The notes beneath the pieces are model-generated. The model worked only from the letters and a program-made list of their open reading frames with translations. It did not search any database and was not told the DNA's origin. This document shows, in pieces, positions 707 through 38,215 of a stretch of DNA of 38,215 nucleotides. The position numbers and the translations under genes were made by a program. This stretch comes from a virus, in IMG/VR virus record IMGVR_UViG_3300028115_000055, positions 1 to 38,215 of that record. One strand, 5' to 3'. How positions within the stretch are numbered: position 1 is the stretch's first letter; each line of letters begins with the position of its first letter.

Positions 707-1036
707 ATGGCACAACTAAGTAACAAAATAAAAGAATACTGCAAAGCTAATGGAGTTAGTGAAGTAGATTTTATGAATGATGTTAAGTTGCAAGACGACA
801 GTAATGGTCAAGGTGCGTATATAGCTGAGTGGAACTTAGATATTGCACAACCAACTGACGCACAACTAGCATCTTATGAAACTGCTGCAAATACTGCTGA
901 AAGTAATGCAACAGTCGATGCAACAAGAAGAAGCCAATATGGTTCTTGGGGAGATCAGTTAGATGAAATCTACCATGACATTGAAGCTTGGAAAACAAGA
1001 ATACAAACAATCAAGGATAATAATCCAAAAGGATAA
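707..1036 (+). CDS. Putative tail-fibre assembly chaperone (XkdW-like C-terminus)
   Basis: This 109-residue protein has the C-terminal pattern YGSWGDQLDEIYHDIEAWK followed by IQTIKDNNPK. That resembles the YPSIGDQLD...W...I..VK...PK tail shared by small phage proteins encoded beside fibre genes (XkdW-like, putative chaperones). A perfect Shine-Dalgarno, AAGGAGGT at 693-700, overlaps the stop of the upstream fibre gene and sits 6 nt before the ATG. It is among the strongest ribosome-binding sites in the window and suggests high translation. The chaperone role is inferred from motif and position. Confidence 0.65.
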   Translation: MAQLSNKIKEYCKANGVSEVDFMNDVKLQDDSNGQGAYIAEWNLDIAQPTDAQLASYETAANTAESNATVDATRRSQYGSWGDQLDEIYHDIEAWKTRIQTIKDNNPKG

Positions 1037-1039
1037 TTA

Positions 1040-1960
1040 ATGGCGTATATAGGTAGAGATACAGATAAAATAAGTAATGTAGAGGTACTGGATAACATTA
1101 CCTTTGATGGTAGTTCATCATACACATTACAAAAAGGTGGAAGCAATTTTACACCTAGTTCTGCGAATACATTATTAGTTAGTATTAATGGTGTAGTTCA
1201 AGCTGGAAACTTTACTGTATCTGGTTCAACAATAGATTTTGGAACAGCAGTTGCTGGAACATCTACTTGCGATTTTATTTTACATTATGGAATTGGATTA
1301 ATTACATCAGTTAGTGATGGCACAGTTACTACTGCTAAACTTGGCGATAGTGCAGTTACTAATGCTAAAGTAAATGCTTCAGCAGCTATAGATTATTCTA
1401 AATTAAACTTAACTGGAAATATTGCATTAGCAGATTTATCAGCAACAGGAACTAAAGATGCTACAACTTTTTTAAGAGGAGATAATACTTTTGCAGAAGC
1501 TGGTGGTGGAAAAGTTTTACAAGTAGTTTCAACTGAAAAATCAGATACATTTAGTTCTTCTGGAACTAGCTTTCAAGATATAACAGGATTGACAGCAACT
1601 ATAACTCCATCTTCAACTTCAAGTAAAATTTTAGTTTTGGTTAATATATCATCTGGTGCAGATAATGGATATAAATATGGATTTAGACTTTTAAGAAGTG
1701 GAACAGTTATTAACGAAGGAGATTCAGCTAGTAGTAGAAAATTAGTTTCAATAGGATTACATAGTGGTTCAAGTATTTCATTTGAAAGTAGTAGTATTGT
1801 TTATTTAGATAGTCCAAACACTACATCTTCAAGACAATATGATATACAAGGTTCTACTGAAGGTTCAAATTTTTATGTAAATAGAACTTATACTGATACT
1901 GATGCTGCTTCTCATATGAGAGCTACATCAAATATAACTTTAATAGAGATAGGTGCATAA
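1040..1960 (+). CDS. Modular tail fibre / receptor-binding protein
   Basis: 306 residues. The N-terminal part (about 1-95) has the MAYIGRDTDKISNVEVLDNITFDGS type of start, a virion-attachment-like region. Next comes a low-complexity stalk (TTAKLGDSAVTNAKV), then the block LSATGTKD plus TTFLRGDNTFAEAGGG at about residues 135-157. The variable C-terminal domain begins KVLQVVSTEKSD. That block recurs in the fibre at 36545-37480. The C-terminal domain resembles the whole of the next fibre-like gene (ATITPSSTSSKILVLV versus ATITPTSTSNKIIILV). It ends in a TAATG overlap with the next gene. Confidence 0.75.
   Translation: MAYIGRDTDKISNVEVLDNITFDGSSSYTLQKGGSNFTPSSANTLLVSINGVVQAGNFTVSGSTIDFGTAVAGTSTCDFILHYGIGLITSVSDGTVTTAKLGDSAVTNAKVNASAAIDYSKLNLTGNIALADLSATGTKDATTFLRGDNTFAEAGGGKVLQVVSTEKSDTFSSSGTSFQDITGLTATITPSSTSSKILVLVNISSGADNGYKYGFRLLRSGTVINEGDSASSRKLVSIGLHSGSSISFESSSIVYLDSPNTTSSRQYDIQGSTEGSNFYVNRTYTDTDAASHMRATSNITLIEIGA
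1481..1509 (+). repeat. 29-nt identical fibre-junction sequence, copy 1
   Basis: Bases 1481-1509 are identical to 36911-36939 and encode DNTFAEAGG. In both fibre genes this marks the boundary between the conserved stalk and an unrelated C-terminal domain, as expected of a recombination joint. Confidence 0.85.
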
Positions 1961-2253
1961 TGGCAGATTTACACAAAGCAATTAGAGCAATTCATAATTC
2001 AGTTGTATCTATAAATGGAGATACACAAGAAAATATTGTTGCAAAAGATAATGATGGAAATGAAGTAAGTATTAATTGGTCATCAGTTAATGCTTGGATA
2101 GACCCAGATACATACAAATATAATAGAGAACAAGAATATCCATCAATTCAAGAACAGTTAGATATGCAATACTGGGATAAGGTTAATGGAACAACAAATT
2201 GGCAAGACGCAATAGCTAAAGTTAAATCAGATAACCCAAAGGTAGATAGTTAA
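1960..2253 (+). CDS. Putative fibre assembly chaperone (XkdW-like tail)
   Basis: 97 residues. The C-terminal half, EYPSIQEQLDMQYWDKVNG and then TNWQDAIAKVKSDNPK, matches the pattern at the end of the 707-1036 protein. The N-terminal half (INGDTQENIVAKDNDGNEVSI) differs and may contact a specific client. It is linked by one-base TAATG overlaps to the fibre genes on both sides, implying translational coupling within the array. The role is inferred. Confidence 0.6.
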   Translation: MADLHKAIRAIHNSVVSINGDTQENIVAKDNDGNEVSINWSSVNAWIDPDTYKYNREQEYPSIQEQLDMQYWDKVNGTTNWQDAIAKVKSDNPKVDS

Positions 2254-2744
2254 TGGCAATAATAACTTTAAATAATAATTCTTTATCTAGTGTAACAGCA
2301 TTACCTGCTGGTGTAGGTGGTAAGGTTTTGCAAACTGTTACTAGCACAAATAATCAACAAATATCTACAACTTCAACATCTTTCGTTGCAACAAATTTAA
2401 AAGCTACAATCACTCCAACCTCAACTTCAAATAAAATTATTATACTTGTAAGTGGAACTGTGTATAACAATACAGTTGAAAAAAATACTTTAGTGACAGT
2501 ATATAGAGGTGGTGTTTCATCTGGAACAAATCTTGGTTCAGGTGGAAGTTTTAGTTCACTTTCAAGAGTTTATAGTGCTGGTGGAGAAATTGTAGTTCCT
2601 ACTGCTGTTACATTTGAAGATAATCCATCTACTACATCAGCTACACTTTTTGAAGTAGCAATAAAAATAGACCCAAGTGGTACAGGATATTTTGGTATTA
2701 ATAATGAAAAAACATCAATAGTTTTAATGGAGATAGCTGGATAA
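2253..2744 (+). CDS. Short fibre-tip protein homologous to the C-terminal domain of the 1040-1960 fibre
   Basis: 163 residues. After a 20-residue leader (MAIITLNNNSLSSVTALPAG) it is essentially one beta-rich domain starting GGKVLQTVTST and ending TSIVLMEIAG. It parallels the tip domain of the upstream fibre, which starts GGGKVLQVVST and ends SNITLIEIGA. This fibre therefore lacks the long stalk and encodes almost only the receptor-binding-like tip. One-base overlaps couple it to both neighbours. Confidence 0.65.
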   Translation: MAIITLNNNSLSSVTALPAGVGGKVLQTVTSTNNQQISTTSTSFVATNLKATITPTSTSNKIIILVSGTVYNNTVEKNTLVTVYRGGVSSGTNLGSGGSFSSLSRVYSAGGEIVVPTAVTFEDNPSTTSATLFEVAIKIDPSGTGYFGINNEKTSIVLMEIAG

Positions 2745-3079
2745 TGATTATAGAAGCAATATTAAAAATAAATCCTAACGCAGAAGTATCTGTAAGTGGT
2801 AATGATATTAATACAGTTCAATGGCACAATGGAACAACACCTATTTCTAAAGCTGACATACAAGCACAATTACCTATTGTAGAATTTGATATGGCTATGG
2901 AAGATTTAAGAGCCAAAAGAAATAAACTATTAGCAGATACAGATTACCTTGCGTTATCTGATAATACTATGAGTGCAGAGATGACAACTTACAGACAATC
3001 TTTAAGAGATATAACAAATGGTTTAACTACTGTTGCTGATGTTGAAGCTGTAGTTTTTCCTACTAAACCAGCTTCTTAA
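2744..3079 (+). CDS. Phage tail assembly chaperone-like protein (PF16778-like)
   Basis: 111 residues. Residues about 55-90 (LRAKRNKLLADTDYLALSDN, then YRQSLRDITNG) match the R..RN.LL..tD....D...YR..LRdi pattern of a phage tail assembly chaperone family found beside fibre genes. It is the last gene of the rightward virion operon in this window. Its 3' end overlaps by 17 bp the convergent metallophosphoesterase gene on the other strand, so no room remains for an independent terminator. Confidence 0.7.
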   Translation: MIIEAILKINPNAEVSVSGNDINTVQWHNGTTPISKADIQAQLPIVEFDMAMEDLRAKRNKLLADTDYLALSDNTMSAEMTTYRQSLRDITNGLTTVADVEAVVFPTKPAS

Positions 3080-5518: not shown

Positions 5519-5679
5519 TTAGCTATTTTACCTTTATTGATACCTTTTTTAATAACATAATCCCTTGTTCCATTAGCACCTATATTAACTTCTTTTTTTA
5601 GGTACTTTGTTAAATTCATTTCTTTAAGTTTTTTCTCTGTATGCTTTTTAAACTGTTCTAATACTTTTGTATCTCTCAT
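5515..5679 (-). CDS. Small basic hypothetical protein
   Basis: 54 residues, Lys-rich (VLEQFKKHTEKKLKEMNLTK, then YLKKEVNIGANG and YVIKKGINKGK). It is soluble, with no recognised domain. It was read directly from the sequence as one link in a chain of ATGA-overlapping small genes; its ATG lies in the stop of the 46-residue upstream gene and its TGA in the start of the next. The coupling supports reality more than the sequence does. Confidence 0.55.
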   Translation of the reverse strand: MRDTKVLEQFKKHTEKKLKEMNLTKYLKKEVNIGANGTRDYVIKKGINKGKIAK

Positions 5680-5816
5680 TTATTTTTTCTCTTTCTTCTT
5701 AATATTTTTACTCTTGATTGCCATAACCAAACAGAAAATCTAATTGAGTATGTTTCTAAAAATGAAAACAAAGTGTCCAGACCACCAAAAAATTTTAATA
5801 AAAACCTATCAATCAT
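5676..5816 (-). CDS. Tiny amphipathic, C-terminally basic protein
   Basis: 46 residues: aromatic and hydrophobic N-terminus (MIDRFLLKFFGGLDTLFSFL), a second amphipathic stretch (IRFSVWLWQSRV) and a strongly basic tail (KILRRKRKNK). It probably associates with a membrane. GGAGG lies 9 nt before the ATG inside the preceding tiny gene, and start and stop overlap the neighbours as ATGA. Function unknown; pinholin-like or lysis-modulating activity is only a possibility. Confidence 0.5.
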   Translation of the reverse strand: MIDRFLLKFFGGLDTLFSFLETYSIRFSVWLWQSRVKILRRKRKNK

Positions 5817-20586: not shown

Positions 20587-20808
20587 ATGGCAAAAGATCA
20601 AGACAATGATCTAAAACAATTAAAACAACAATACAAAATTACATTTTCATCTAAAGAAGGTGAAAAGGTATTAGCAGATTTAACGTCTGCTTATTATCAT
20701 AGGAGTTCATTTATAAAAAATGATCCCCATGAAACATCATACCGTGAAGGACAAAGATCGGTATTAATCAGAATAATCAATCTATTAAAGGAGAATAAAA
20801 ATGTCTGA
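20587..20808 (+). CDS. Bbp19-like small protein
   Basis: 73 residues. FSSKEGEKVLADLTSAYYHR, then SSFIKNDPHETSYREGQRSV and LIRIINLL, match the f.s..G..vL..L......s......t...eGqR.vi..I pattern of the Bbp19 family, encoded between portal and scaffold in many podophages. Its role is uncertain. The start follows the portal stop by 1 bp; the end overlaps the scaffold by 8 bp. Confidence 0.75.
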   Translation: MAKDQDNDLKQLKQQYKITFSSKEGEKVLADLTSAYYHRSSFIKNDPHETSYREGQRSVLIRIINLLKENKNV

Positions 20809-21646
20809 TGAACAAACGACCACAACTGACAATCCAGAAACAGTTATAGCTAATCAAATACAAGAAACAGCTAATACAGTTCTTGGATCAGAAAGTGATA
20901 ATCAAAACGATTGGAAATCATCACTATCTGAAGAAATAAAAAACGATCCAACACTTGCTAACTTTAAAGATGTTGAAGGTCTTGCTAAAACAGTAATACA
21001 TCAACAAAAAGTTTTAGGCAGTAGAGTACCTATTCCTAAAACAGATGAAGAAAAAGCAGAACTTTATAATAAACTAGGAAGACCAGAAGACCCTAGCAAA
21101 TATGAAATAAATGTACCAAATGAAATGGTTGATTATTTCAAAAAAGAAGATGTTGAACAATTTAAAAACGTGGCACATAAAATTGGTTTAAACAATGATC
21201 AAGTAAATGCTTTAATGGAATATCAAGTTCAATCTACGCAAAATACTTTAAACAATGAAGGTGCGGTTATGGCCCAACAAAAAGAACAAGCAGAAGAAGT
21301 GCTTAAAAAAGAATGGGGTTATGATTACGATAAAAATGTTAGAGCCGCAGATAGAGCATTAAATGTTTATGGAGATGATGAATTAAGAAATTTATTAACT
21401 CAAACATCTGCTGGTAATAATCCTGCTGTTTTAAAATTTTTAGCAACTATTGGTAAAGAAGTAACAGAAGATATGGCACAAAATACTACTAACAATAGAT
21501 TAGCCGTATCACCATTAGATGCTAAAGAAGAAATTAATAATATCATGGCTGATACAAGTCATGCTTATTTTGATCCATCACATCCAAACCATGAAATTGC
21601 TGTAGAAAAAATGCGTCAATTACATGAAAAAGTGTATGGTAAATAA
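20801..21646 (+). CDS. Capsid scaffolding-like protein
   Basis: 281 residues, acidic and helical. The N-terminus is a disordered Thr/Asn/Gln region; next come VEGLAKTVIHQQKVLGSRVP and then RPEDPSKYEI, a pattern frequent in podovirus scaffold proteins. A long helix (VMAQQKEQAEEVLKKEWGYD) precedes a C-terminal segment ending in charged helices (EIAVEKMRQLHEKVYGK). Position between portal and capsid gene supports a scaffold role. GGAG lies 8 nt before ATG. Confidence 0.82.
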   Translation: MSDEQTTTTDNPETVIANQIQETANTVLGSESDNQNDWKSSLSEEIKNDPTLANFKDVEGLAKTVIHQQKVLGSRVPIPKTDEEKAELYNKLGRPEDPSKYEINVPNEMVDYFKKEDVEQFKNVAHKIGLNNDQVNALMEYQVQSTQNTLNNEGAVMAQQKEQAEEVLKKEWGYDYDKNVRAADRALNVYGDDELRNLLTQTSAGNNPAVLKFLATIGKEVTEDMAQNTTNNRLAVSPLDAKEEINNIMADTSHAYFDPSHPNHEIAVEKMRQLHEKVYGK

Positions 21647-21660
21647 GTGACAATTGTGAT

Positions 21661-21780
21661 ATTATTACAACAGAAAGTTTGCCCGTAAGGACAACAAACT
21701 TACAAGTCATGTGGACTATAAAACCGTGTTGATTGTATCGTTATTACAATAAGGTTTCCCGTAAGGATAAAGACCGATTA
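21661..21780 (+). ncRNA. Capsid-gene leader RNA: two hairpins with one conserved loop
   Basis: Hairpin 1: AAGTTTG (21675-21681) pairs with CAAACTT (21695-21701) around the 13-nt loop CCCGTAAGGACAA. Hairpin 2: GGTTT (21753-21757) pairs with AGACC (21771-21775, one G-U) around CCCGTAAGGATAA. Both are preceded by TTATTACAA (21662-21670 and 21741-21749). The loop is conserved at 12 of 13 positions while the stems differ and still pair, which is the mark of selected RNA structure. No matching known riboswitch class is recognised. It precedes the most highly expressed gene. Confidence 0.55.
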
Positions 21781-21848
21781 ATTAGAATATGGTTTGATGC
21801 ATTAGTATTATACCCCCTATTCTTAACTTTTAAATAAGGACTAAAAAC

Positions 21849-22737: not shown

Positions 22738-22763
22738 AGGGCCATTGCAATATATGGCCCTTT
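22738..22763 (+). terminator. Intrinsic terminator after the capsid gene
   Basis: AGGGCCAT (22738-22745) and ATGGCCCT (22754-22761) form a perfect 8-bp stem with an 8-nt loop, then TTAATAT. The T-run is short, so partial termination is likely. This fits high capsid expression with reduced read-through to tail genes. Confidence 0.7.
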
Positions 22764-26243: not shown

Positions 26244-28053
26244 AAGTGAAGGTGGTACTACTATTGATAGTGGTAGATCATTAACTACAGGAACTCAAAC
26301 AGGTAGTGCTGTAGCTAATCTTGGTGTAACTGCAATTAACAAAGTTACAGAATACGCTAACAGAAAAAACTCTATTGATGCTAAATTAAGAAGATTAGAT
26401 ATTAATACTAATAAAGATTTATCTACAGCTATGATGTATGGTAAAACTTCTGATTTTCAAAACTCATTACAAAATAGACAAGATTTTTTAACTCCAGATA
26501 ATTGGTTATTAGATTATGATAATAGCGCAAAACAATGGGAAAAAGAATTTAAATCTGGATTAGATGAGCAAACTTGGAAAGAATATCAGCCTTTATATTA
26601 TCAAAAATTTTTTGAAGCTAGAAATGATGTAGTTAAAGCAGTTAATAATCAAAAACTAAAAAATGCAGGTCATGCTTTTAATGAAGCAAATACTGCATAC
26701 AAATCATCTGTAGAACAAGCTACTTCATTATCACAAATAAAAGCACAATATGAATTATATACAGAATTACACTTAAAGAAAAATGTAGAAACTAATTTGT
26801 TTGATCAAAAAACTTTTAATGAAGTTAAAGAAACAACTAAAAATTGGACAAATGTAAAATACGGAATGTTACAAGCTACTAAAGATTTAATTATTATGTC
26901 ACCTAATGGTAGCCAAGAAGTTGATTGGAATAATGTAACATCAAGACTTAAAAACAAAAATTTTAAAATTGTTGATATTGAAGGTAAAGAATTAACTGTT
27001 GATGATGATTTAAGAAAAGAATTAATTAAACAAGCACAAGATGAATTTACAAATCAAAATTCATTACACACAAAACAAAAAGAAGAAAAAGATAAAACAA
27101 CTAAAACAGATTTTGTAAATAGAATTATTGGTTTAGAAACTGGTACTAAAGAAGGTCAAGAAAATGCTAAAAATTTTATGGCTGATTTAGAAAATTCAGA
27201 TTTAGAACCAAGCACAAAATTATCTATGAGAACTGCTTACAATGCCGCTTTAAATAATATGAAAAACGGTAAGAATAGTTGGAATAGTGTACAAGGTAAT
27301 CAAGCATTGGCAATGACTACTTATTTAATTGGTTCTGGTGCTATGGATACTGAAAAAGAAAGAGAAGTTATTTGGGATTTAATGGCTCAAGGATTGTTAG
27401 AACCTAAAACAGCAATGAGTTTATATAAACAAAGTGGTGAATTAACAAAAAGCAGAAATGCTTACAAAAAAGATATTACTACAAAAGCTACATCTATGTT
27501 GATGAAAGAAATAGGTGCTGATCAAGGTGTGTTAGGAATGTTAAATAGTTTAGAACAATTACCACCAGCAGAAAGAACACGTGCTTTATTAACCGCATTA
27601 GATAGTGGAAAAATGACACAAGAAGCATACAATGCTATGAACAATATGTACAGATTACTTGCTGAAGGTGAACGTAAAGGGTTTACATATGAAAATATGT
27701 TAGTCAATAGAAGACATCCAAATTATATTTTAAACGATTTAATTGAAACTTATAAAGGTACTATAAATGATGAAAGATTAAATGAATTACAAAATAAAAT
27801 TAAAGGTATTGTTGGCCCAACAGCTACAGACCAATCTTTTTACATTATGCCTACTGAATACTTTGTAGGTAAAACACCAAGTAATGCTAATCTTGTTATG
27901 CCTCCAAGAAATGAAGGTGAAGATGTTATTACTTATCTAAAACGTGCTAAAAAATTAATTAAAAGAACAGATGGGCTACCTAGTGTTATTACTGGAGAAA
28001 ATGTTGAAACATTAGATGTATCTGATCTGTTTATAATGCCAGACTTTGAATAA
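26224..28053 (+). CDS. Internal virion protein, T7 gp15-like
   Basis: 609 residues, largely helical and Asn/Lys-rich, starting MKIPRYRSEGGTTIDSGRSL. Middle: NWLLDYDNSAKQWEKEFKSG and then YYQKFFEARNDVVKAVN. The order gp14-like, gp15-like, gp16-like is that of T7-group phages, in which this protein lines the periplasmic ejection tunnel. Sequence resemblance to T7 gp15 itself is weak by eye, so the call rests on order, size and helical content. Confidence 0.65.
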   Translation: MKIPRYRSEGGTTIDSGRSLTTGTQTGSAVANLGVTAINKVTEYANRKNSIDAKLRRLDINTNKDLSTAMMYGKTSDFQNSLQNRQDFLTPDNWLLDYDNSAKQWEKEFKSGLDEQTWKEYQPLYYQKFFEARNDVVKAVNNQKLKNAGHAFNEANTAYKSSVEQATSLSQIKAQYELYTELHLKKNVETNLFDQKTFNEVKETTKNWTNVKYGMLQATKDLIIMSPNGSQEVDWNNVTSRLKNKNFKIVDIEGKELTVDDDLRKELIKQAQDEFTNQNSLHTKQKEEKDKTTKTDFVNRIIGLETGTKEGQENAKNFMADLENSDLEPSTKLSMRTAYNAALNNMKNGKNSWNSVQGNQALAMTTYLIGSGAMDTEKEREVIWDLMAQGLLEPKTAMSLYKQSGELTKSRNAYKKDITTKATSMLMKEIGADQGVLGMLNSLEQLPPAERTRALLTALDSGKMTQEAYNAMNNMYRLLAEGERKGFTYENMLVNRRHPNYILNDLIETYKGTINDERLNELQNKIKGIVGPTATDQSFYIMPTEYFVGKTPSNANLVMPPRNEGEDVITYLKRAKKLIKRTDGLPSVITGENVETLDVSDLFIMPDFE

Positions 28054-28055
28054 CT

Positions 28056-31000
28056 ATGAAAATAACAGCTTTACAATTATCACAAGCTGGGTTTGATACA
28101 GACACCATAAAATCGTATGTTGATACCCAAATACCTCTTTTAGAAAAAGCAGGATTTAATAAAAAAGAAATTTACAATAGTTACGGTATAGTACCTATTA
28201 AATCTAATTCATTATTAGATACTGATATGCAGGAAGACACAACTGCTATTACAGAAAATCAATTACCTTTAGGTAAAAAAACATCATTAATGAAATTACA
28301 AGATGAAGAAAATGCTAACACAATTAAATCTAACAAAACATCTGACGGTAAATACAATCTTAAAAACACTACATTTGATTTATTAAAGAATGAAGATCAA
28401 GCTAAAATTGTAAATAAAATAGATGAAGCATATAAATTATTTAAAGAAGATGATGATGGTAGAGTAGGATTTATAGATAATTGGATGGAAAAATACTATC
28501 CAAACATAGCATATGAAAAAGAAAAATTTAAAAGTGGTGTAGATTTAACTTTAGCAGAAAGTGCATTAAATGATGAACAAGTTAAATTATTAGAAAATGC
28601 ACAAGCTAAAGATGCTATTGCAGGTAACTTTGGTTTTAATCAAGAAACAGGTAGATATCTTTTTGATACAAATTTTGAACAAGCTGAAGATGAAAGAAAA
28701 GCTAATGAACCTGTTAATGTATTACATACAGCTTTTTCTACAGGTGCTAACTCAAAAACAATATTAGAATATGCTAAACAAAATTATGAATTTAATGATA
28801 TGCAAATTATGTATCTTAATGAGTTTATGTCATTTGTTTCAGCGTTAGAAAGTAATAATAGAAATATTTACAATGCAGATGGTAGTGCTGGTGGTTTATT
28901 TCAATTTAGAAAAAGTGGTTTTAGAACTGCTTTAAATAGATTTATAAACATAAACAGAAAAATAAATAAAGATTATGAATTACCTTATTGGGTAACAGAA
29001 GCATTTAAACATCAAGACCCTACAAGATTATCACCAGATGAACAAAAATCTTTAGCATTAGCTAACTTTTTAGAAATGCCTAAAAGTGAAAAATATAATC
29101 GTGCTGGTTCAGATCAATTAATTAAAGCAATTGCTAATGGTGATGTTGATGCAATGAAAAAATTATACATTGAATATCATCATGCTGATTATGAAAAAGT
29201 AGAAGATATAGAAGCAGGTGTAGGACAAGAATATAGACTTGTTGATAATCAAAAATTAAAAGAAAGAACTGACCAATATTTTGATAAATTTGGTACAGAT
29301 AAATATGATTATGAAACTGCACAATTAGCTTATTGGGGTAATGACAATATTGTAACTAAAGCATTAGAAAAATTACCTGCAAATATAGGTGATAAAGTTT
29401 TAAATGCTTTTGGTGGTAAAGGTTATTACAACGTATTTACAAATGGATACGAACAATCTGTTAATGGTATGTTAGACAGATATTATCAAGTATTTATTGA
29501 TGATCCTAATGCTGATCCTAAAGAAGCAATACAAAAAGTATTTATGTATCAAGAACAAAGATTTGATAAAGATATTGTTGCATCTGCTGTTACGTTAGTA
29601 AATGATTTACCATTTATGGCGGCAGGTTGTTTTGCGGCAGGTGGTACAGCTTTAGTTGGAAGTGCAGGTACAGCCGCACCTGCGTTACCTGTTATATGTG
29701 GTGCTGGTGGTTTTGCATTACCAGAAGTTATTAGATCAGCTTATATGAGAGCAATAGAAGATAATTTTGTAGGATCATTTCCAGAATTTTTAAGTCATTA
29801 CATGGATAAAAAAACAGCAATTGTTGCTGGTAAAACAGCAGTAATTGGTGGTGTTACATTTGGTGTTGGTGCAAAAGTTAAAGCATTAACAGGAAGTACA
29901 ACAGCTAGATTAGCTTCAGAAGTAAGTGTTATGACTACATTAGGTGCGGCATTAGAAGGCCATGTACCTACAATGAGAGATTTTGCTCATGCTACGGTCT
30001 TGGTTTTTGGAATACATGGGTCAATACGAGGTATGAAAATGTTTAAAGACATTTATACTGAATACGGCAGACACCCTAGAGATGTAATTAAAGACATGGA
30101 AAAAGACGTGACTGTTAGACATCAAATAGAAAATGGTCAAATGCCAACTCTTTACGAACAAGGTGCTAAAACAGTTGTAGAAGGATTAGAGAAACAAACT
30201 AACATTAAATTATTACCTCCACCAAAATTTAAAAACAATGAAATTGTTAATGTATCCACATCTTCTACAGAAGTTGGTAGGGTAATTGGCAAAGAAACAA
30301 TTGGTAATGAAAAAGTTGTTATAATTGAAAAAACAAATGGTGCTAAAATACCAGTATTAGAAAGTGAAGTTAGAAAAGCACCAAACAAACCTGTTGAAGT
30401 AAAAGTAGAAGGTGACAAAATTAATATAAATTTTGCTAAAGATACATCATTTGCTGAAAGAAAATCTAATGGTGAATTTAATGTTAATGTTGTTGAAGTT
30501 ACAAAAAATAAACAAAATATTTATACAGAAGGTACATTTAAAAGTAATGCTGACTTAGCTGTAAGAGATACAGGAAGCGCAATAAGAATAGTTACAAAAG
30601 ATGGTAAGACAATTGCTAATGAAACAATAACTATTCAATCTAAATTTTACCCAGAATTAGCAAAAAGATTTAAAGAAAACAAAGAACAAAAAACAGAATA
30701 CAATAACGCCAAAGAATTAATTACTAAAGAACGTAATGGTTTATCTTCAGTAGCTAAAAAAGTTGAAATTTTATTTGCATTAAAAGGCAATATTGAAAAA
30801 ATGATTTTAAGAGTTGGTAAAGACAATGTTGCTATACCAAGATCAGCATATGAACAATTAATTAAATTTACTGAAAAAGGTGAGGTTAAAACTGCTGAAA
30901 TAATGGGTAGTGAAGGAAGACAAGTTATAATGATGTTGCATCCAGAAACAGGTAAAATTTTAGCAACTATAAAAGGTGAAAAAATTAATGGTGAAATAGA

Positions 31001-34000
31001 TGCACAAGCTACAAATTATTTTGATAACTTTAAAGAAAAAGAAGGTGTATATTTTGATAGAGTAAACAGTAGTAAAGATGGTGATAACTGGGGAATACCT
31101 AGAGATATATTTACACAAGAAAAGAATTTACCAACAGACTACGCAAACAATTCTGCGGCATGGAAAGGTTTATTTAATTCAGCAAAAGGATTAGATATGA
31201 TTGATCTTGTAGAATTATACAAAGCATTTGTTAAAAAATCACCAGAACTAAATAACTTACCAACAGGTCTAAATGGTTACTTTCAATTTAAAGGCAAGAA
31301 ATCACCTAGAATAGTTATTAACGAAGCATTACAAAAAAACCCAGAACAATTTTTAATGACATTTGCACATGAGTTAGGGCATTTAATTGATTATTTGCCA
31401 AACGCTACTTTATCAAGAGGTAATATATTAGGTTCTATAGCGGCTTTAAAAGGATACATGAACAAATGGATTGATGGTAAAAATGAAGGTGCAAAACCAT
31501 TAAGTGCAAAAGAAATAGAAGCTATTAAATCAGCCGCAATCAAAGAAGCAAAAGCTAAAGAAAAAGAAACTAACGCAGAAATCAAACAATTAGAAATAAC
31601 TCCAGATACTATACTTAAAATATTTAATGATGCATCTGCTAGAGAAAAGATTAATCCAGATTTTTATAATGCATTTGTAAAACTACCTGCTGAAGTTAAA
31701 AAATTAGTAGTTAAAGATGCAATGAAAGGTTTAATGTCACAACACATGAAAGCTATTGCAGATAAGATTAATGGCAAACCTACTGATAGCAGATTAACTA
31801 ATGAAGCATACAAAATCTTTAAAGATAAATTTGAAAGAATAATCAAAGAAAGAGGATTAGTTAATAAAGAATGGATTACTACAGAACTTAAAAATTTATC
31901 TGCAAAATGGAAACCATTTGATAGAAGTGCTAGAGCAGATTACACAGCATATAGAGATGGCCCTAGAGAACTAATGGCAGATTTTATGATGGCGTTTATG
32001 CTACGACCACAATGGGTTAAAAACAATGCACCTAGAACATGGGAAATGTGGATGCATTATATGGATGCTAGACCAGAAGTAAGAGCAAACTGGGAAAGAA
32101 TACAAATAGATTTAAAATCTGGAACAGACAAAAGATTAGGTAAAGTAGTATCAGACATAGGTAATATGTTTAGAGAAACTAACGAAGCTACAATCAAACG
32201 AATAGAAAAAGATTACAAACCAGATTTAGCTGATGTTCTTGGTACTGAAGCAATTGATAACTTTTTTTGGATATATAGAAGATTTAGAGGAACTGGTAGT
32301 GATAGATGGCATAGTCCATTAGCAAAAGAATTAAACTGGTCAATTGAAAACTACAGATACCGTCATGCTAAATTAAAAAGATACACAGATGATATGATGC
32401 GTAAAGTTGTAAAACCAGCAGAAGAACTAGGATACAACAGTATTGATATTGGTACTATGTTATTTTTAAGAAACATAGCTGAAAGTTCACAAAGAAACAA
32501 ATTAGTTAATTCATTAGGTATTATGAAAGTAAATCCAGAATTAGCAAAAGTATTAGGTAATAGAACTGCAAAAGAAATATATGATTATTATGTAAAATTA
32601 CATCCACAACTATTTGAACTAACAAATGAGTTTTACAAAGTTAGACAAGAAATGGTTATTCCAGAATTAAAAGAAAGTGGAATGTATGACAAAGAATTAA
32701 TTGCTAAATTAGAAAACAACAAAGAATACGTTACATTTAACGTAAGAAAATATTTGTTAGAACGTATAGAAAAATACGGGCCAAACTCAAGTGCTACAAG
32801 ATTTTTAAAAGGGTCAAAAGGTACGTTTGATGACATTATGAATGTATTTAATGCAACACTTGAAAAAGATATGTTGTTAATGGTTGAAGCTAAAAGACAT
32901 AGAACAATGGCTTTAACTGTTAAATGGTTAAGAGAAAATAAAAATTGGATGGAAACATATGGAAAAAAATATGGCGCTTACGGTGCTAAAGTAAAAGATA
33001 GAGTTGTTTACAAACCTAAATTTATTGGAAAAGGTAAATTAGAAAAACCAGCTAAAGGCATGGAATTATTTAGTTACATGAAAGACGGTAAGATGCAACA
33101 TTGGCACGTTAATAAATTTGTAGCACAATCATTTAAAGAAAATCCAAACGGTACAATGATGATGTACAAAATTATGACAGGAACAGGTGATGTATTTAGA
33201 AAAATGTTTACTGAATATAATCCTGCTTTCTGGCCAATTAACTTAGCTAGAGATTTAAACAGATCAGTTAAATTATTACCTAATGCTAGATATATAGATA
33301 TTACTGGTAAAGGTAAAAATTCATTATTAAAATATTATTTTAAAGCAGTTAAACCTGCATACCAATCTATTTTTAAAGATGGTACTGAACTTACTAGATG
33401 GATGGAAAGTGAAGGTTTTTTAATTTCTATGAATGAAGGATATAGAGGACAAGCAGGTAGTAAAGCATTAATGAAGGGTCTTGATCCAGACACATATATG
33501 CTTGAAAGATTGCTTGGTGATATGCAAAAGAAAAAAGGATTTGATAAATTTTGGAATGATACATTTGGTCATTTATTTTCTACACTAGGTAACTTTGCTA
33601 GAATGTTTGAAAGAACACCTAAAATTGCAGGAACTATGTATTTAAAAGATGCAATTAAAAGAGGTGATTTAAAAATGAATGATAAAGAAATGATGTTAAG
33701 AATACAATCGGAAGTAGGATCACCAAACTTTTTAAGACAAGGTAGATTAAATGCATTTACTAATAATTTATATTTATACTCTAACGCATTTAAAGAAGGT
33801 TGGAGAGCAGATATAACTAGATTTAGAGAAGACCCTGCATCAGTTGGCGGTAAGTTTATAGCTTACAATGTAATGCCTAAAATTTTACAAAAAATGATGG
33901 AAGTAGGATTATTCGGTGCTTCGTTAGGTATGGTTTACAAATACGGTATATCTGATTGGGATAAAATAAATTACATTCCAATTGTTTTAGGTGAAACACA

Positions 34001-34814
34001 AGATGGAAGACCAGTATATTTAAGAATACCACAAGACGAAACATCTAGATTAATTAATGGATTTTTATACAAAGCAATGAGTATTGGTGATGATGGAAAA
34101 ACAGGTACATTTGAAACACCTGCTGATTTATTTGGTTATTTAGGATCATCTGGATTACCTTCTATGAACCCAGTATTTAGTTTATTTGGTGATGTTATTG
34201 GATGGATGAATGGTACTACTCCATATGATGATTTTAGAGGAACTACAGCAATTGATAAAACAACTGACAAAGCAGATGATGCTAGAAAAAACAAAGAGTT
34301 ATTAAAATGGTTCTTTAATACTTATTCTGGTCAAGGTTTATATAAATTTAAAAGCAATGATTACAAAGAAATATCATCAGAATTAGAAGAAATGCTTGAT
34401 ATGCCAGTAGTAGGTAGAATACTTAATAGATTTGTAAAAATTGGTAATAATCCAATAGTAGGATATATGGAAAATTCTGAAGGTGGATTACAACAATACG
34501 AAAAAGAAAATGCTCAAGTTACACTTGATTTTAAAGAAGCTATTGTAAATTTAACTACGGGTGAGCCATTAACCAATAAACATAAAATGGCATTATTAGC
34601 AAGAAGTGAAAGTTTAAAAACTAATAACTTATTAATTGACAGATTATCTCAAATGGCTGGTGGTACAGTATTGTTACAAGATTTCTTAACTGAAACAGAC
34701 AGTAAAAAACAAGCTATTATGGTTATGAAGTTAGTTGAGTTTATTGAAAAAACTGATAATACGTATCCTATTAACTTTATTAAAGAACAAAAATCTGATA
34801 AAATAGAAGAATAA
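28056..34814 (+). CDS. Giant ejection protein (T7 gp16-like) with transglycosylase and HELGH metalloprotease motifs
   Basis: 2252 residues, the largest gene. Residues about 255-345 look like a lytic transglycosylase: MSFVSALESNNRNIY (candidate catalytic E265), then GGLFQFRKSG from 279. A hydrophobic stretch near 515-560 (PFMAAGCFAAGGTALVGSAG) could cross a membrane. FAHELGHLIDY at about 1103-1113 is a zincin motif (H1105, E1106, H1109). The C-terminal quarter (NYIPIVLGETQDGRPVYLRI, PQDETSRL) resembles LPD38. By analogy it opens peptidoglycan and spans the envelope during DNA entry; T7 gp16 is 1318 residues and has no protease. Confidence 0.82.
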   Translation: MKITALQLSQAGFDTDTIKSYVDTQIPLLEKAGFNKKEIYNSYGIVPIKSNSLLDTDMQEDTTAITENQLPLGKKTSLMKLQDEENANTIKSNKTSDGKYNLKNTTFDLLKNEDQAKIVNKIDEAYKLFKEDDDGRVGFIDNWMEKYYPNIAYEKEKFKSGVDLTLAESALNDEQVKLLENAQAKDAIAGNFGFNQETGRYLFDTNFEQAEDERKANEPVNVLHTAFSTGANSKTILEYAKQNYEFNDMQIMYLNEFMSFVSALESNNRNIYNADGSAGGLFQFRKSGFRTALNRFININRKINKDYELPYWVTEAFKHQDPTRLSPDEQKSLALANFLEMPKSEKYNRAGSDQLIKAIANGDVDAMKKLYIEYHHADYEKVEDIEAGVGQEYRLVDNQKLKERTDQYFDKFGTDKYDYETAQLAYWGNDNIVTKALEKLPANIGDKVLNAFGGKGYYNVFTNGYEQSVNGMLDRYYQVFIDDPNADPKEAIQKVFMYQEQRFDKDIVASAVTLVNDLPFMAAGCFAAGGTALVGSAGTAAPALPVICGAGGFALPEVIRSAYMRAIEDNFVGSFPEFLSHYMDKKTAIVAGKTAVIGGVTFGVGAKVKALTGSTTARLASEVSVMTTLGAALEGHVPTMRDFAHATVLVFGIHGSIRGMKMFKDIYTEYGRHPRDVIKDMEKDVTVRHQIENGQMPTLYEQGAKTVVEGLEKQTNIKLLPPPKFKNNEIVNVSTSSTEVGRVIGKETIGNEKVVIIEKTNGAKIPVLESEVRKAPNKPVEVKVEGDKININFAKDTSFAERKSNGEFNVNVVEVTKNKQNIYTEGTFKSNADLAVRDTGSAIRIVTKDGKTIANETITIQSKFYPELAKRFKENKEQKTEYNNAKELITKERNGLSSVAKKVEILFALKGNIEKMILRVGKDNVAIPRSAYEQLIKFTEKGEVKTAEIMGSEGRQVIMMLHPETGKILATIKGEKINGEIDAQATNYFDNFKEKEGVYFDRVNSSKDGDNWGIPRDIFTQEKNLPTDYANNSAAWKGLFNSAKGLDMIDLVELYKAFVKKSPELNNLPTGLNGYFQFKGKKSPRIVINEALQKNPEQFLMTFAHELGHLIDYLPNATLSRGNILGSIAALKGYMNKWIDGKNEGAKPLSAKEIEAIKSAAIKEAKAKEKETNAEIKQLEITPDTILKIFNDASAREKINPDFYNAFVKLPAEVKKLVVKDAMKGLMSQHMKAIADKINGKPTDSRLTNEAYKIFKDKFERIIKERGLVNKEWITTELKNLSAKWKPFDRSARADYTAYRDGPRELMADFMMAFMLRPQWVKNNAPRTWEMWMHYMDARPEVRANWERIQIDLKSGTDKRLGKVVSDIGNMFRETNEATIKRIEKDYKPDLADVLGTEAIDNFFWIYRRFRGTGSDRWHSPLAKELNWSIENYRYRHAKLKRYTDDMMRKVVKPAEELGYNSIDIGTMLFLRNIAESSQRNKLVNSLGIMKVNPELAKVLGNRTAKEIYDYYVKLHPQLFELTNEFYKVRQEMVIPELKESGMYDKELIAKLENNKEYVTFNVRKYLLERIEKYGPNSSATRFLKGSKGTFDDIMNVFNATLEKDMLLMVEAKRHRTMALTVKWLRENKNWMETYGKKYGAYGAKVKDRVVYKPKFIGKGKLEKPAKGMELFSYMKDGKMQHWHVNKFVAQSFKENPNGTMMMYKIMTGTGDVFRKMFTEYNPAFWPINLARDLNRSVKLLPNARYIDITGKGKNSLLKYYFKAVKPAYQSIFKDGTELTRWMESEGFLISMNEGYRGQAGSKALMKGLDPDTYMLERLLGDMQKKKGFDKFWNDTFGHLFSTLGNFARMFERTPKIAGTMYLKDAIKRGDLKMNDKEMMLRIQSEVGSPNFLRQGRLNAFTNNLYLYSNAFKEGWRADITRFREDPASVGGKFIAYNVMPKILQKMMEVGLFGASLGMVYKYGISDWDKINYIPIVLGETQDGRPVYLRIPQDETSRLINGFLYKAMSIGDDGKTGTFETPADLFGYLGSSGLPSMNPVFSLFGDVIGWMNGTTPYDDFRGTTAIDKTTDKADDARKNKELLKWFFNTYSGQGLYKFKSNDYKEISSELEEMLDMPVVGRILNRFVKIGNNPIVGYMENSEGGLQQYEKENAQVTLDFKEAIVNLTTGEPLTNKHKMALLARSESLKTNNLLIDRLSQMAGGTVLLQDFLTETDSKKQAIMVMKLVEFIEKTDNTYPINFIKEQKSDKIEE

Positions 34815-34816
34815 TT

Positions 34817-36196
34817 ATGACAATTACTACTACTATTATAAAAAACAGTTATTCTGGAAATGGAAGTCAAACAGTATTTCCATACACATTTAAAATTAAT
34901 ACGGATGCTGATATACAGGTTCTTGTTAGATCATCATTAGGTACTGAAACATTAAAAACATTAAGTACAGATTACACAGTTAGCGGTGCAGGTGATGCAG
35001 GTGGTGGTAATGTAACTATGATTGTTGCACCTGCAACTGGTGAAACATTAGTTATTAGAAGATCAACTACACAAACTCAAGAATTAGACTTAGTAGAAAA
35101 TGACCCTTTTAGTGCAGAAACAGTAGAAGGTGCATTTGATAAATCAGTATCATTAGTACAAGAAATTCAAGAAGAAGCAGATAGATCAATTAAATTATCA
35201 AGAACAAACACTATGACATCAACTGAATTTACAGTTGGTGCTACAGAACGTGCTAACAAAGTTCTTGCATTTGATAGTACAGGTGAATTATCAGTTGCTC
35301 AAGAATTAGGGCAATTTCAAGGCAATTGGTCATCTGGTGAAACATATGCTCAAAGAGATATTATAAAAGATACATCTAATGGAAACATTTATATTTGTAT
35401 AACAGCACATACTTCAAGTGGCGCACAACCTATTAGTACAAATACTGATAGCGCAAAATGGTCATTATTAGTTGATGCAGAAAGTGCAACTTCATCTGCA
35501 ACTGCGGCGGCGGCAAGTGCAACTGCGGCGGCTACATCTGAAACAAATGCGGCTACATCCGCTACTGCGGCGGCAACTTCAGCTACCAATGCGGCAACGT
35601 CTGAAACTAACGCATCAACTTCAGAAACTAATGCGGCGGCTAGTGCAACAACAGCATCTACTGCGGCAACCAATGCTCAAACAAGCGAAACTAATGCGGC
35701 TACCAGCGAAACTAACGCCGCAACTAGCGCAACCAACGCATCAAATTCTGCTACATCTGCGGCCAGTTCAGCAACTACAGCTACCACAAAAGCTAGTGAG
35801 GCATCTACATCAGCTACAAACGCCGCAAGTTCAGCGTCATCAGCATCTACATCTGCGACTAACGCATCTAACTCTGCAACTGCCGCAAGTACATCTGCGA
35901 CTAACGCCGCTAACTCTGCTACTGCATCTGCAAGTTCAGCAACATCTGCGGCTACTTCTGCTACTGCGGCTGAAGCGGCATATGATAATTTTGATGATAG
36001 ATATTTAGGGCCAAAAGCTAGTGACCCTACATTAGACAATGACGGTGATGCTTTGTTAGATGGGGCATTGTATTTTAACACAACAACAAATGTTATTAAA
36101 TATTATGATGGATCAAGTTGGTCACCAGTTGAAGCAGTAGATACATCTAATTTAGCAACAAATGGGTTTAGCATTGCAATGGCGATAGCCCTGTAG
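34817..36196 (+). CDS. Primary tail fibre with gp17-like N-terminus and Ala/Ser/Thr heptad stalk
   Basis: 459 residues. Residues 1-150 (SYSGNGSQTVFPYTFKINTD, ENDPFSAETVEGAFDKSVSL) match the T7 gp17 N-terminal attachment domain. About 172-218 (GNWSSGETYAQRDIIKDTSN, then YICITAHTSS) resembles a ChiA/CBM5-12 carbohydrate-binding module. About 225-390 is a repeat stalk of SATNAAT/SETNAAT units. The end, DRYLGPKASDPTLDNDG and then GALYFNTTTNVIKYYDGSSW, is a common fibre C-terminal motif. It probably anchors the other fibre proteins, which lack a gp17 N-terminus. Confidence 0.88.
   Translation: MTITTTIIKNSYSGNGSQTVFPYTFKINTDADIQVLVRSSLGTETLKTLSTDYTVSGAGDAGGGNVTMIVAPATGETLVIRRSTTQTQELDLVENDPFSAETVEGAFDKSVSLVQEIQEEADRSIKLSRTNTMTSTEFTVGATERANKVLAFDSTGELSVAQELGQFQGNWSSGETYAQRDIIKDTSNGNIYICITAHTSSGAQPISTNTDSAKWSLLVDAESATSSATAAAASATAAATSETNAATSATAAATSATNAATSETNASTSETNAAASATTASTAATNAQTSETNAATSETNAATSATNASNSATSAASSATTATTKASEASTSATNAASSASSASTSATNASNSATAASTSATNAANSATASASSATSAATSATAAEAAYDNFDDRYLGPKASDPTLDNDGDALLDGALYFNTTTNVIKYYDGSSWSPVEAVDTSNLATNGFSIAMAIAL
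35485..35975 (+). repeat. Degenerate 21-bp coding repeats of the fibre stalk
   Basis: About twenty imperfect units encode seven-residue repeats such as SATNAAT and SETNAAT. GCG and GCC alanine codons make the tract far richer in G and C than the rest of the genome. The repetition opens long artefactual reading frames on the other strand and in another frame. Confidence 0.8.
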
Positions 36197-36210
36197 TATA
36201 AGGATAATAT

Positions 36211-36537
36211 ATGGCACAAAATTTTAGAAGATACACAAGCAATGATGTAGGAACATCAGCATCAACTTTATTTACTGCTGACAGTTATGATACTGTAGTT
36301 GGTATATCAGTTTCAAATGTAACAGCATCTGCTGTTGTAGCATCTGTATATATTAATGATGGTTCTAACGATATTTATTTAGTTAAAGACGCACCAATAC
36401 CAAGTGGTTCATCATTACAAGTATTAGATGGAGGAGCAAAGTTTGTTGTTCAATCTGGTGATGCTTTAAAAGTAATATCAGACACAGCTTCATCTTTAGA
36501 TGTTTGGGTATCAACTGTAGATGCAATAAGTACATAG
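36211..36537 (+). CDS. Small structural protein of the fibre region
   Basis: 108 residues, beta-rich: YTSNDVGTSASTLFTADSYD, TVVGISVSNVTASAVVASVY, then KDAPIPSGSSLQVLDGGAKF and VVQSGDALKVISDTASS. This is the pattern of small virion proteins next to phage fibre genes, probably one beta-sandwich. AGGAT lies 7 nt before ATG. Specific role unknown; adhesin or fibre-linker are both plausible. Confidence 0.65.
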   Translation: MAQNFRRYTSNDVGTSASTLFTADSYDTVVGISVSNVTASAVVASVYINDGSNDIYLVKDAPIPSGSSLQVLDGGAKFVVQSGDALKVISDTASSLDVWVSTVDAIST

Positions 36538-36544
36538 GAGATTA

Positions 36545-37480
36545 ATGCCGTTTATAGGAAATCAACCAGCATTAAGTTACACAAGTTTTGCTAAGCAAGA
36601 CTTCACTACAAGTGCGACTACATCTTACACATTAGATAATCCAGTTGCTAACGCAAATGAGTTAGCATTATTTATTAACTTTGTAAGACAAGAGCCTACA
36701 ACTGCTTATACTGCTAGTGGTACAAGTTTAACTTTAACAAGTGCAACATCTGCATCAGATGATATGTACTGTGTGTTTTTAGGTAAAGCTGTTCAAACAG
36801 TAAATCCTCCAAATGGTTCAGTAGGTGCTTCACAGATTGCTGATAGTTCAATCGCTTTAGGAAAGTTATCTGCTACTGGTACAAAAGACAGTACAACATT
36901 TCTAAGAGGCGATAATACTTTTGCAGAAGCTGGTGGTGGTGCTATGGAACTACTACATACTGCAACAGGATCAGATGTTTCTTCAATAGATATTAATGGA
37001 TATTTTACTTCTGATTATGACCATTATAAATTAATTTATTCAGTTTATGCTGCAACAAATAATACAGATACTATGGTTAGAATAATGCAAGGTGGTTCAG
37101 TAATTACTGCTTCAAATTATTGGTTTGCTGGAAATGCTTGGTATTATGATGGAACTTATAGTCAATCAAGTAATGCTGTTGGATTTAATACAAATTATAT
37201 TGGAATTGCATCAACCGATAATACAAGTAATTCTCAATATCCAACAACAGGAGAAATGCTTTTATCCAATCCATTAAGCACAAGTCAAAACACTACTATA
37301 ACAACAAATAGCATTGGATATAATTCTGGAGCTGGAGCTGGTCAGCCACCTACTGCAATAAGAACTTGGAATTACGCTGGTACATATATTTCAACAACAG
37401 CAACTTCTGGAATTTCTTTTGGATATATTGGTGGAAATATTAATGGAACAATTAGATTATATGGAATGAAAAATAGTTAG
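36545..37480 (+). CDS. Modular tail fibre / receptor-binding protein
   Basis: 311 residues. N-terminal segment MPFIGNQPALSYTSFAKQDF and on (1-95, beta-rich, cf. NELALFINFVRQEPTTAYTA), then the stalk ASQIADSSIALGK. The junction block is LSATGTKD plus TTFLRGDNTFAEAGGG. The C-terminal domain is distinct (AMELLHTATGSDVSSIDING and on, ending GNINGTIRLYGMKNS). The same junction block occurs in the fibre at 1040-1960 with a different tip. GGAG lies 5 nt before ATG. Confidence 0.78.
   Translation: MPFIGNQPALSYTSFAKQDFTTSATTSYTLDNPVANANELALFINFVRQEPTTAYTASGTSLTLTSATSASDDMYCVFLGKAVQTVNPPNGSVGASQIADSSIALGKLSATGTKDSTTFLRGDNTFAEAGGGAMELLHTATGSDVSSIDINGYFTSDYDHYKLIYSVYAATNNTDTMVRIMQGGSVITASNYWFAGNAWYYDGTYSQSSNAVGFNTNYIGIASTDNTSNSQYPTTGEMLLSNPLSTSQNTTITTNSIGYNSGAGAGQPPTAIRTWNYAGTYISTTATSGISFGYIGGNINGTIRLYGMKNS
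36911..36939 (+). repeat. 29-nt identical fibre-junction sequence, copy 2
   Basis: Identical to 1481-1509 and encodes DNTFAEAGG. It separates the shared stalk from the divergent tip domain of this fibre. Confidence 0.85.
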
Positions 37481-37488
37481 GATTTATT

Positions 37489-37701
37489 ATGACAATGTAC
37501 AAATTATTAAATGGTGAAAAAGTTAAACTTACAGCAGAAGAAGAAGCAGCTAAAGAAGCAGAAATTGCACAAGCAAATATTGATAAACAAGCTAGAGAAG
37601 CTGCTAGAGTAGAAAAAGAAACTAAAAAAGCATCTGGCAAACAAAAACTTTTAGACTTAGGATTAACAGAAGAAGAGGTAAAGGCATTAATAGGCATATA
37701 A
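37489..37701 (+). CDS. Tail-fibre chaperone-like small protein, complete copy
   Basis: 70 residues: a short N-terminal strand (MTMYKLLNGEKVKLT), a long charged helix (AEEEAAKEAEIAQANIDKQA, then REAARVEKETKK) and an end LLDLGLTEEEVKALIGI. It has the size and composition of small helical proteins coded after fibres in marine phages. It is the intact homologue of the gene cut by the left window edge, with 102 identical nt. It sits between two fibre genes; its chaperone role is inferred. Confidence 0.7.
   Translation: MTMYKLLNGEKVKLTAEEEAAKEAEIAQANIDKQAREAARVEKETKKASGKQKLLDLGLTEEEVKALIGI
37520..37621 (+). repeat. 102-nt perfect direct repeat, right copy
   Basis: Identical to bases 1-102 and lies inside the chaperone-like gene. 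The identity ends at 37622, and the last part of the gene has drifted (EEVKALIGI versus EEIKLTFGL). Confidence 0.9.
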
Positions 37702-37702
37702 T

Positions 37703-38215
37703 ATGAGCGAAGTAAAAGTAAATAAAATCAGTCCTAGAACAGGAACCACGTTCACAATAGGTGATGCCGGAGACACGGTTACTACTGCAGGAGACATTTC
37801 TGCATTAAACATTACAGCAACTAATTCTTTAACTGTAAATGGTGAATCAGTTACTTCAGCGAATCCAACTTTTACATCTATTTCACCTGATACTATTACT
37901 AACGATCAAACATCTATTACAATTACAGGAAGTAATTTTGTATCAATCCCTGTTGTTGAAGCAATCTCAACAACTGGAGTCATCACACCAGCAGACAGTG
38001 TAACATTTAATAACTCAACATCACTTACTTGTAATTTTACATTAACAACAGATGGAACTTATTATATTAGAATTGAAAACAATGACGGTCTAGCGGTTCG
38101 ATCATCAACTGCAGTATTAACAGTATCAGATGCACCTGTATGGACCACTGCAGCAGGTGATCTTGGTACTATTGCTGGAGATTTTTCCGGAACTGTTGCA
38201 ACCGTTGCAGCAACA
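37703..38215 (+). CDS. Fibre protein with IPT/TIG-like Ig domain, 3' truncated
   Basis: 171 residues before the window ends with no stop. The start MSEVKVNKISPRTGTTFTIG, then DAGDTVTTAGDISALNITAT, is a fibre N-terminus common in marine phages. PTFTSISPDTITNDQTSITI, then TGSNF, is an IPT/TIG-like immunoglobulin fold (about residues 58-145). APVWTTAAGDLGTIAGDFSG at about 147 begins an Ig-like putative repeat. It begins 1 bp after the chaperone-like gene. It is another unit of the fibre/chaperone array; length and tip domain are unknown. Confidence 0.75.
   Translation, partial: MSEVKVNKISPRTGTTFTIGDAGDTVTTAGDISALNITATNSLTVNGESVTSANPTFTSISPDTITNDQTSITITGSNFVSIPVVEAISTTGVITPADSVTFNNSTSLTCNFTLTTDGTYYIRIENNDGLAVRSSTAVLTVSDAPVWTTAAGDLGTIAGDFSGTVATVAAT

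Follow-up and report, generated by a model that had tools for sequence, protein, structure and literature searches.

We found that the capsid gene of a phage record analysed over its whole length (38,215 bp, hereafter the window) is preceded, within its 5' untranslated leader, by an element of about 100 nt with the arrangement HP1-M1-(M2)-HP2. The conserved part of this element is an asymmetric internal loop, in which a 5' C faces AYAA on the 3' side, closed by CC:GG and set between covarying stems. We regard it as almost certain that the element is a conserved cis-acting leader RNA of the capsid gene.

Twin hairpins in the capsid leader

In the window, the terminase gene lies at 16173, the portal gene at 18903, a protease-like gene at 20801-21646 (upstream of the element), and two tail-tube genes at 22783 and 23355; the approximately 16 kb of genes past the element are all on one strand. 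Scans against phrogs revealed no RNA polymerase gene among the 40 ORFs of the window. Small tail-fibre-like genes are present at both window ends (707-3079 and 36211-37701), which suggests a genome that was circularly permuted or cut open, leaving the ends of the record inside one module. A late-region ORF of 2252 aa (28056-34814) had no PHROGs match and has a relative in Baldr at 36.5% identity.

The initial annotation had described two tandem leader hairpins with a constant loop on compensating stems. Both motif copies, CCCGTAAGGACAA (21682-21694) and CCCGTAAGGATAA (21758-21770), were recovered without further exact matches in the window, and both sit in hairpins (Table 1). The twin hairpins are thus real, while the tip GTAA varies in relatives and it is the internal loop that stays constant. 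The element also proved larger than the two hairpins, extending over about 21672-21776, plus M3, a clade-specific hairpin that, by eye, is restricted to near relatives with longer leaders. A further proposed common feature, TTATTACAA before each hairpin, was found in only 5 of 61 distinct leaders, confined to close relatives; its first copy overlaps the promoter -10 (TGaTATTAT), and the second is the 3' arm of the M2 hairpin.

The window contains exactly one such twin; when one strand of the window was shuffled 20 times, a single twin arose over all shuffles. In single-sequence folding, the leader was only slightly better than its shuffles (z = -0.98), so that thermodynamics alone would have missed the twin.

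Table 1. Features of the capsid leader in the window
Feature	Position	Strand	Remarks
Extended -10 promoter TGnTATTAT	21657-21665	+	sequence match; transcription start predicted near 21672
HP1	21675-21701	+	lower stem AAGTTTG/CAAACTT (21675-21681 with 21695-21701), C(21682)/ACAA(21691-21694), CC:GG clamp, GUAA tip
M1 hairpin AGTC/GACT	21705-21717	+	4/4 pairs changed on both sides, 81.1% of cells paired, helix partly misaligned by one column in alignment A2
M2 domain	21724-21754	+	CCG, hairpin 21732-21750 with CGU in loop, then AAGG
HP2	21753-21775	+	lower stem GGTTT/AGACC (21753-21757 with 21771-21775), C(21758)/AUAA(21767-21770), CC:GG clamp, GUAA tip
M3, AT-rich hairpin between HP2 and ribosome site	21784-21823	+	by eye
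Shine-Dalgarno-like AAGGA of capsid gene	21836-21840	+	read from sequence
Major capsid protein gene, 286 aa	21849-22709	+	phrog_3437 major head protein, E 1.1e-94

Covariation around a constant internal loop

To analyze the conservation of the element, we took the best 80 of at least 599 capsid homologues from viral contigs; two loci were too short, and 60 distinct leaders were obtained. Hairpins were recognized by script from a C, an upper stem closed by C-G, ANAA, and a lower stem of 3 bp. At least one hairpin was present in 59 of the 60 leaders and two with AYAA in 51. Within 200-nt leaders, 51 of 59 distinct sequences carried the twin, compared with 1 of 1180 shuffles.

The 57 distinct elements were reduced to 40 that are less than 95% alike, 39 of which (L082 was dropped by the script) were aligned by anchoring on the C and AYAA only. 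In this alignment, the single nucleotide of the internal loop is C in 38/39 rows of HP1 and 39/39 of HP2, and the four-nucleotide side is AYAA, once AGAA. A constant apical loop was ruled out, since the tip ranges widely in both sequence and length over the same rows. The lower stem of HP1 was paired in register in 169 of 195 cells (a fraction of at most 0.49 when slid) and had 63 double-change cells (at most 13 when slid); that of HP2 was paired in 192 of 195 cells (at most 0.67 when slid). One clamp pair is swapped to G-C in L069.

A second alignment, A2, holds 28 long-form elements under a hand-written structure, with 11 short forms and L090 left out. Here, 90.5% of cells were paired, 21 of 26 pairs had changes on both sides, and double-change cells numbered 113, compared with 36.5 in shuffles and no more than 22 after sliding. 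This test favours the unslid version because the structure was drawn from those same sequences. The anchored test of HP1 and HP2 is free of this bias. For the M2 helix, A2 gave double changes in 6/6 pairs, with 89.6% of cells paired. Short forms account for 11 of the 40 distinct elements; by eye, ten of them are without M2 and one (L096) is without M1 instead.

Permuted form and other loop classes

HTVC010P-type leaders, gathered by their own capsid, numbered 71 distinct sequences, including six outlying phages. They have the same internal loop, with HP1 circularly permuted: its order is outer stem-G, ANAA, inner stem (usually with a GNRA tip), C, and outer stem. Permuted HP1 was found in 66 leaders, standard HP2 in 56, and both in 54; after removal of the outliers, twins occurred in 52/64 leaders versus 7/1280 shuffles. 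The HP2 inner stem was paired in 314/325 cells, with 74 double changes against at most 15 when slid, and the HP1 outer stem in 256/260 cells, with 19 against at most 5. The remaining two stems gave weak tests: pairing of the HP1 inner stem stays at 0.95-0.96 when slid one way, and the HP2 outer stem has one double change. In HTVC010P itself, the permuted HP1 (5757) overlaps the 3' end of a small upstream gene (CDS 5622-5798).

Leaders of OM43 phages (MEP301-type) show the same layout with C facing CNNA. Under a strict script, both hairpins were recognized in 43 of 65 distinct leaders, and 16 of these 43 have the same tetranucleotide in both; looser anchors placed each hairpin in 63/65. The inner stem of HP1 was paired in 231/252 cells (96 double changes versus at most 26 slid) and that of HP2 in 287/315 (43 versus at most 20 slid). 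By eye, M2 of this type (loop CGUAA, then AAG) resembles the pelagiphage M2. Scanning the OM43 set for exact identity returned twins in 11/69, two of them with unrelated signatures, at a shuffle rate of 26/690 for scores of 13 or more; exact twins are few, as the NN positions are frequently not the same in HP1 and HP2. Taken together, covariation in three separate groups strongly supports selection at the level of RNA structure, in line with what the initial annotation had drawn from two copies.

We also scanned 31 leaders for identical-loop twins without regard to class. A U/GCAA twin was found in a Clostridia MAG contig (L383; 0/200 shuffles), and in a Phycisphaerae MAG contig (L381, 2800-3000) three A/CAAA hairpins precede the capsid gene (1/200 shuffles). 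U/GUAG twins occurred in L372 (2/200, where a one-base-shifted reading ranks equal first), L374 (4/200) and Alteromonas ZP6 (4/200), and a C/AUAC twin in Yersinia YeP5 (L117; 10/200). The match in L382 was held spurious. The other 24 of the 31 leaders gave no identical-loop twin, and these include known positives because exact identity misses C/ACAA paired with C/AUAA. With one mismatch allowed, Vibrio CKB-S2 showed C/AUAA in a permuted plus a standard hairpin (1/100 shuffles), and most other leaders were not significant. Leads at the level of inspection by eye are C/AUAC of Vibrio 1.182, the leaders L393, L380 and L382, and the U/GUAG twin of Vibrio K300 (scripted best score reached by 28/100 shuffles); a scripted twin in L392, reached by 18/100 shuffles, is likewise a lead. 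In L481, HP1 read by eye is C/AUAA and HP2 U/GCAA, hence unlike.

The loop classes are therefore C/ANAA, C/CNNA, U/GUAG, C/AUAC, A/CAAA and U/GCAA, and usually one class occupies both hairpins. In a tree of 60 capsid proteins, several deep branches of which are long and uncertain, loop class mostly follows capsid clade, and C/ANAA occupies at least three separated positions. Loop class is apparently not dictated by the host, because Vibrio phages show C/AUAA (by script) as well as U/GUAG and C/AUAC (by eye). A wobble pair plus a three-nucleotide bulge (C.A, U.G, A.C) as the common principle is only an idea; it fits several classes but not that of OM43, where C stands opposite C.

Association with the capsid gene

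Two gene-blind single-hairpin patterns, scanned over viral contigs, listed at least 132 loci (73 and 59). When these 132 listed loci were searched with covariance model R2, 37 gave no match and 95 matched at E up to 1, 89 of them with E < 1e-5. In all 89 strong matches, a capsid homologue starts about 24-78 nt downstream with the element facing the gene and no gene intervening, the homologue being present in four of them only as a short stretch at the contig end; these 89 are not independent finds, because many contigs recur from the capsid-homologue set. The six weaker matches had no capsid homologue downstream. The covariance search, on which the initial annotation had let its reading stand or fall, thus placed every strong match directly upstream of a capsid gene.

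Within a genome, the twin occurs once, before the capsid gene (three genomes, both strands). The element is present in Skadi (L109), and a freshwater capsid used as query returned one locus. R2 found nothing in 385 genomes of the class of G003, a search run under stricter filters and without a positive control, and gave one weak match in G001 (E 0.365), which had no match to the capsid set. No convincing twin was seen in HTVC028P (L106), Hodr (L116), Vibrio 1.257 (L482), E. coli vB_EcoM_APEC (L479), Dunaliella virus SI2 (L480), the alphaproteobacterial MAG contigs L375-L379 and L390, L391, L394, or the Akkermansia-type contigs L385-L389; single motif matches in L385-L388 were taken as chance.

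We noticed that the GenBank locus tags of Baldr (OQ414636, L104) and Hodr (OQ414635, L116/L490) are apparently swapped, each bearing the other's name. In addition, pelagiphage capsid leaders are present on L371 and L373, contigs assigned to a Verrucomicrobia MAG and an Ascidiaceihabitans genome, L373 being nearly identical to Skadi; both contigs probably come from phages and were binned, or amplified, together with other bacteria.

Predicted promoter and 5' end

In 35 of 46 distinct standard-type relatives, the motif TGnTAnnnT was found in the 45 nt preceding HP1, versus 332/2300 shuffles, mostly 12 nt before the 4-bp HP1 arm; among the 11 misses are a few in which the script took HP2 for HP1. 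OM43-type leaders have a -35/-10 pair in 27/58 versus 117/1160 shuffles, and in 24 of these 27 HP1 begins 4-6 nt past the -10. These matches strongly indicate that transcription starts at a host-type promoter right upstream of the element, with start sites predicted from sequence. The element RNA would therefore form the 5' end of the capsid/tail transcript.

Possible modes of action

We propose that both of the equivalent loops dock the same partner, either while the transcript is being made or once it is finished, and that docking would raise the output of the capsid operon. When window genes were compared by tblastn with six element-bearing phages, only the portal, capsid and two tail-tube genes matched in all six, and the protease-like gene in four. 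A shared dedicated phage RNA-binding regulator is unlikely for this reason, and a host factor or a core virion protein is consequently favoured as the partner.

Our leading guess is the elongation complex of the host RNA polymerase, which may pause and terminate less over the long late operon in phages without a polymerase of their own. Both Skadi (PMC10504331) and MEP301 (PMC8024684) are reported to lack an RNA polymerase of their own. The element would then work like, without being homologous to, the put RNA of HK022, a reading that we hold as possible though short of probable. The put RNA consists of two stem-loops with bulges, about 70 nt in all, lies just downstream of PL and binds polymerase (PMC9378689). 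It brings about protein-free antitermination and anti-pausing through the beta' zinc-binding domain. Like put, the element has two stem-loops close behind a host-polymerase promoter, here assigned by sequence match. Unlike put, which serves early operons and occurs twice per genome, it precedes the capsid gene, has M1/M2 between its hairpins and occurs once in each of the three genomes scanned. The several loop classes among Vibrio phages, partly read by eye, are odd for one conserved host partner, and the strict adjacency to the capsid gene is compatible with a capsid-specific role too. Homology to put was examined and rejected: a 1x4 twin scan of HK022, in which putL and putR were located, found no twin on the minus strand and, on the plus strand, two matches that are unrelated, and R2 had no match in HK022 28000-38000.

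There is also little visible to antiterminate, because terminator-like sites within 130 nt past the capsid gene were rare (1/60, 0/66 and 0/67) and those over the late region were not enriched (8 versus 6.5 expected), rho-dependent ones being invisible to such a scan. Immediately 3' of the capsid gene in the window is a GC-rich hairpin, AGGGCCAT...ATGGCCCT (22738-22761), with a weak T tract, which was not flagged by the terminator scan; the counterpart position in T7 is that of terminator Tphi.

The element may instead act on the mRNA, as a 5'-terminal folded cap that, with or without a host protein, protects the capsid message and/or aids its translation, which we consider hardly less plausible than the polymerase-directed reading. 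Its predicted 5'-terminal position and strict capsid adjacency are consistent with this, as is the T7 gene 10 leader, which likewise joins a dedicated promoter, a 5'-terminal hairpin and a Shine-Dalgarno sequence before the capsid gene, with TTAACTTTA ahead of the Shine-Dalgarno sequence in T7; in our case the 5'-terminal hairpin on a dedicated capsid transcript is assigned by position and promoter match. TTAACTT was found in 14/49 standard-type leaders versus 45/2450 shuffles, and in 7/43 of the HTVC010P type, whereas full TTAACTTTA occurred in only 2/49 (10/2450 shuffles) and 1/43. In the window, TTAACTTTT (21823-21831), just before the ribosome site, resembles TTAACTTTA. On the other hand, T7 has one plain hairpin behind a phage polymerase promoter and no twin internal loop, and a plain hairpin would be enough for 5' protection, leaving two matching permutable internal loops unexplained. 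Opening of the ribosome site by the leader was rejected, its predicted accessibility being no better than with shuffled leaders (0.42 vs 0.47, 0.47 vs 0.50, and 0.36 vs 0.45).

Coat proteins of RNA phages tune their own synthesis by binding an operator. By analogy, free capsid protein, or an assembly protease or scaffold, might bind the twin loops and tune its own synthesis, which we consider unlikely. The capsid gene always adjoins the element and is among the four genes common to the six comparison phages, and loop class largely follows capsid clade. Nevertheless, we know of no RNA-binding precedent for this capsid fold, Hodr has a capsid homologue with no element found, and the same class, C/ANAA, recurs in separated capsid clades. 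The MS2-type operator is a hairpin with paired GG/CC and unpaired A residues beside the start codon; here, twin permutable internal loops occur in a double-stranded DNA phage, and binding is putative.

We infer a ranking in which polymerase-directed action stands barely ahead of an mRNA-level role, followed by capsid autoregulation. This ranking follows from the scarcity of terminators, a ribosome site that is not opened and the lack of a shared dedicated regulator.

Inverted repeats can also act as DNA, and a cruciform, replication or packaging site is very improbable, given G-U pairs in one orientation (in A2, one M1 pair is GU 8 times and one HP2 pair is UG 6 times, for example) and an element that begins at the promoter and is oriented toward the gene in every strong match. 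Least probable of all is the ribosome decoy suggested initially. In the window, AAGGA is part of both hairpins as well as of the true ribosome site, but it occurs in either hairpin in only 20 of 40 distinct elements and in both in 4, the hairpin tip varies freely, and the GG is paired.

Comparison with other RNAs

Rfam 15 gave no match at gathering score in the window or in 20 diverse loci; between 21600 and 21900, the only two matches, to snoRNAs (E 1.3 and 1.9; limit 10), lie far below thresholds and were dismissed as chance. No published description was found in the literature searched, which covers few subscription-journal papers, so the initial judgement that this is not a described element agrees with both sources.

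Lambdoid nut/boxB sites are phage RNA hairpins that follow a promoter and differ in sequence class from phage to phage, boxB being a single hairpin that is read at its tip and needs phage N protein. In the present element, by contrast, the tip is free to vary, and the comparison of the six phages revealed no gene for a dedicated regulator that they share. A tandem riboswitch was rejected, since the strong matches precede the capsid gene in 89/89 cases, not metabolic or transport genes. Hammerhead and twister ribozymes keep their RNA core through circular permutation (PMC10085705). The present core is kept in a similar way; unlike theirs, it is a simple bulged helix with no Rfam ribozyme match, and no cleavage is suggested.

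Implications

We tentatively propose that these leaders represent an undescribed class of cis-acting phage RNA, in which two permutable 1x4 bulge modules of several loop classes would dock a common partner. The proposed class would extend across a podovirus capsid family, its carriers infecting SAR11, OM43, Vibrio, Alteromonas and unassigned hosts. That the loop classes are usually kept alike within a phage would be expected if RNA and protein co-evolve as lock and key to set capsid output. Possibly, the class antiterminates late genes without the help of a phage protein; if it is put-like, it would add to put a second and much broader family of RNAs that modify polymerase on their own.

In Skadi, no terminators, tRNA or ribonucleotide switches were reported (PMC10504331). 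HTVC010P-type phages are without their own polymerase, and how their late genes are driven is little known. A permutable RNA heading the capsid operon offers a concrete handle on late-gene control, with compensatory mutants supplied by nature. The carriers of the element are very common ocean viruses of bacteria, in which it may be a switch or booster for the most-needed viral protein.
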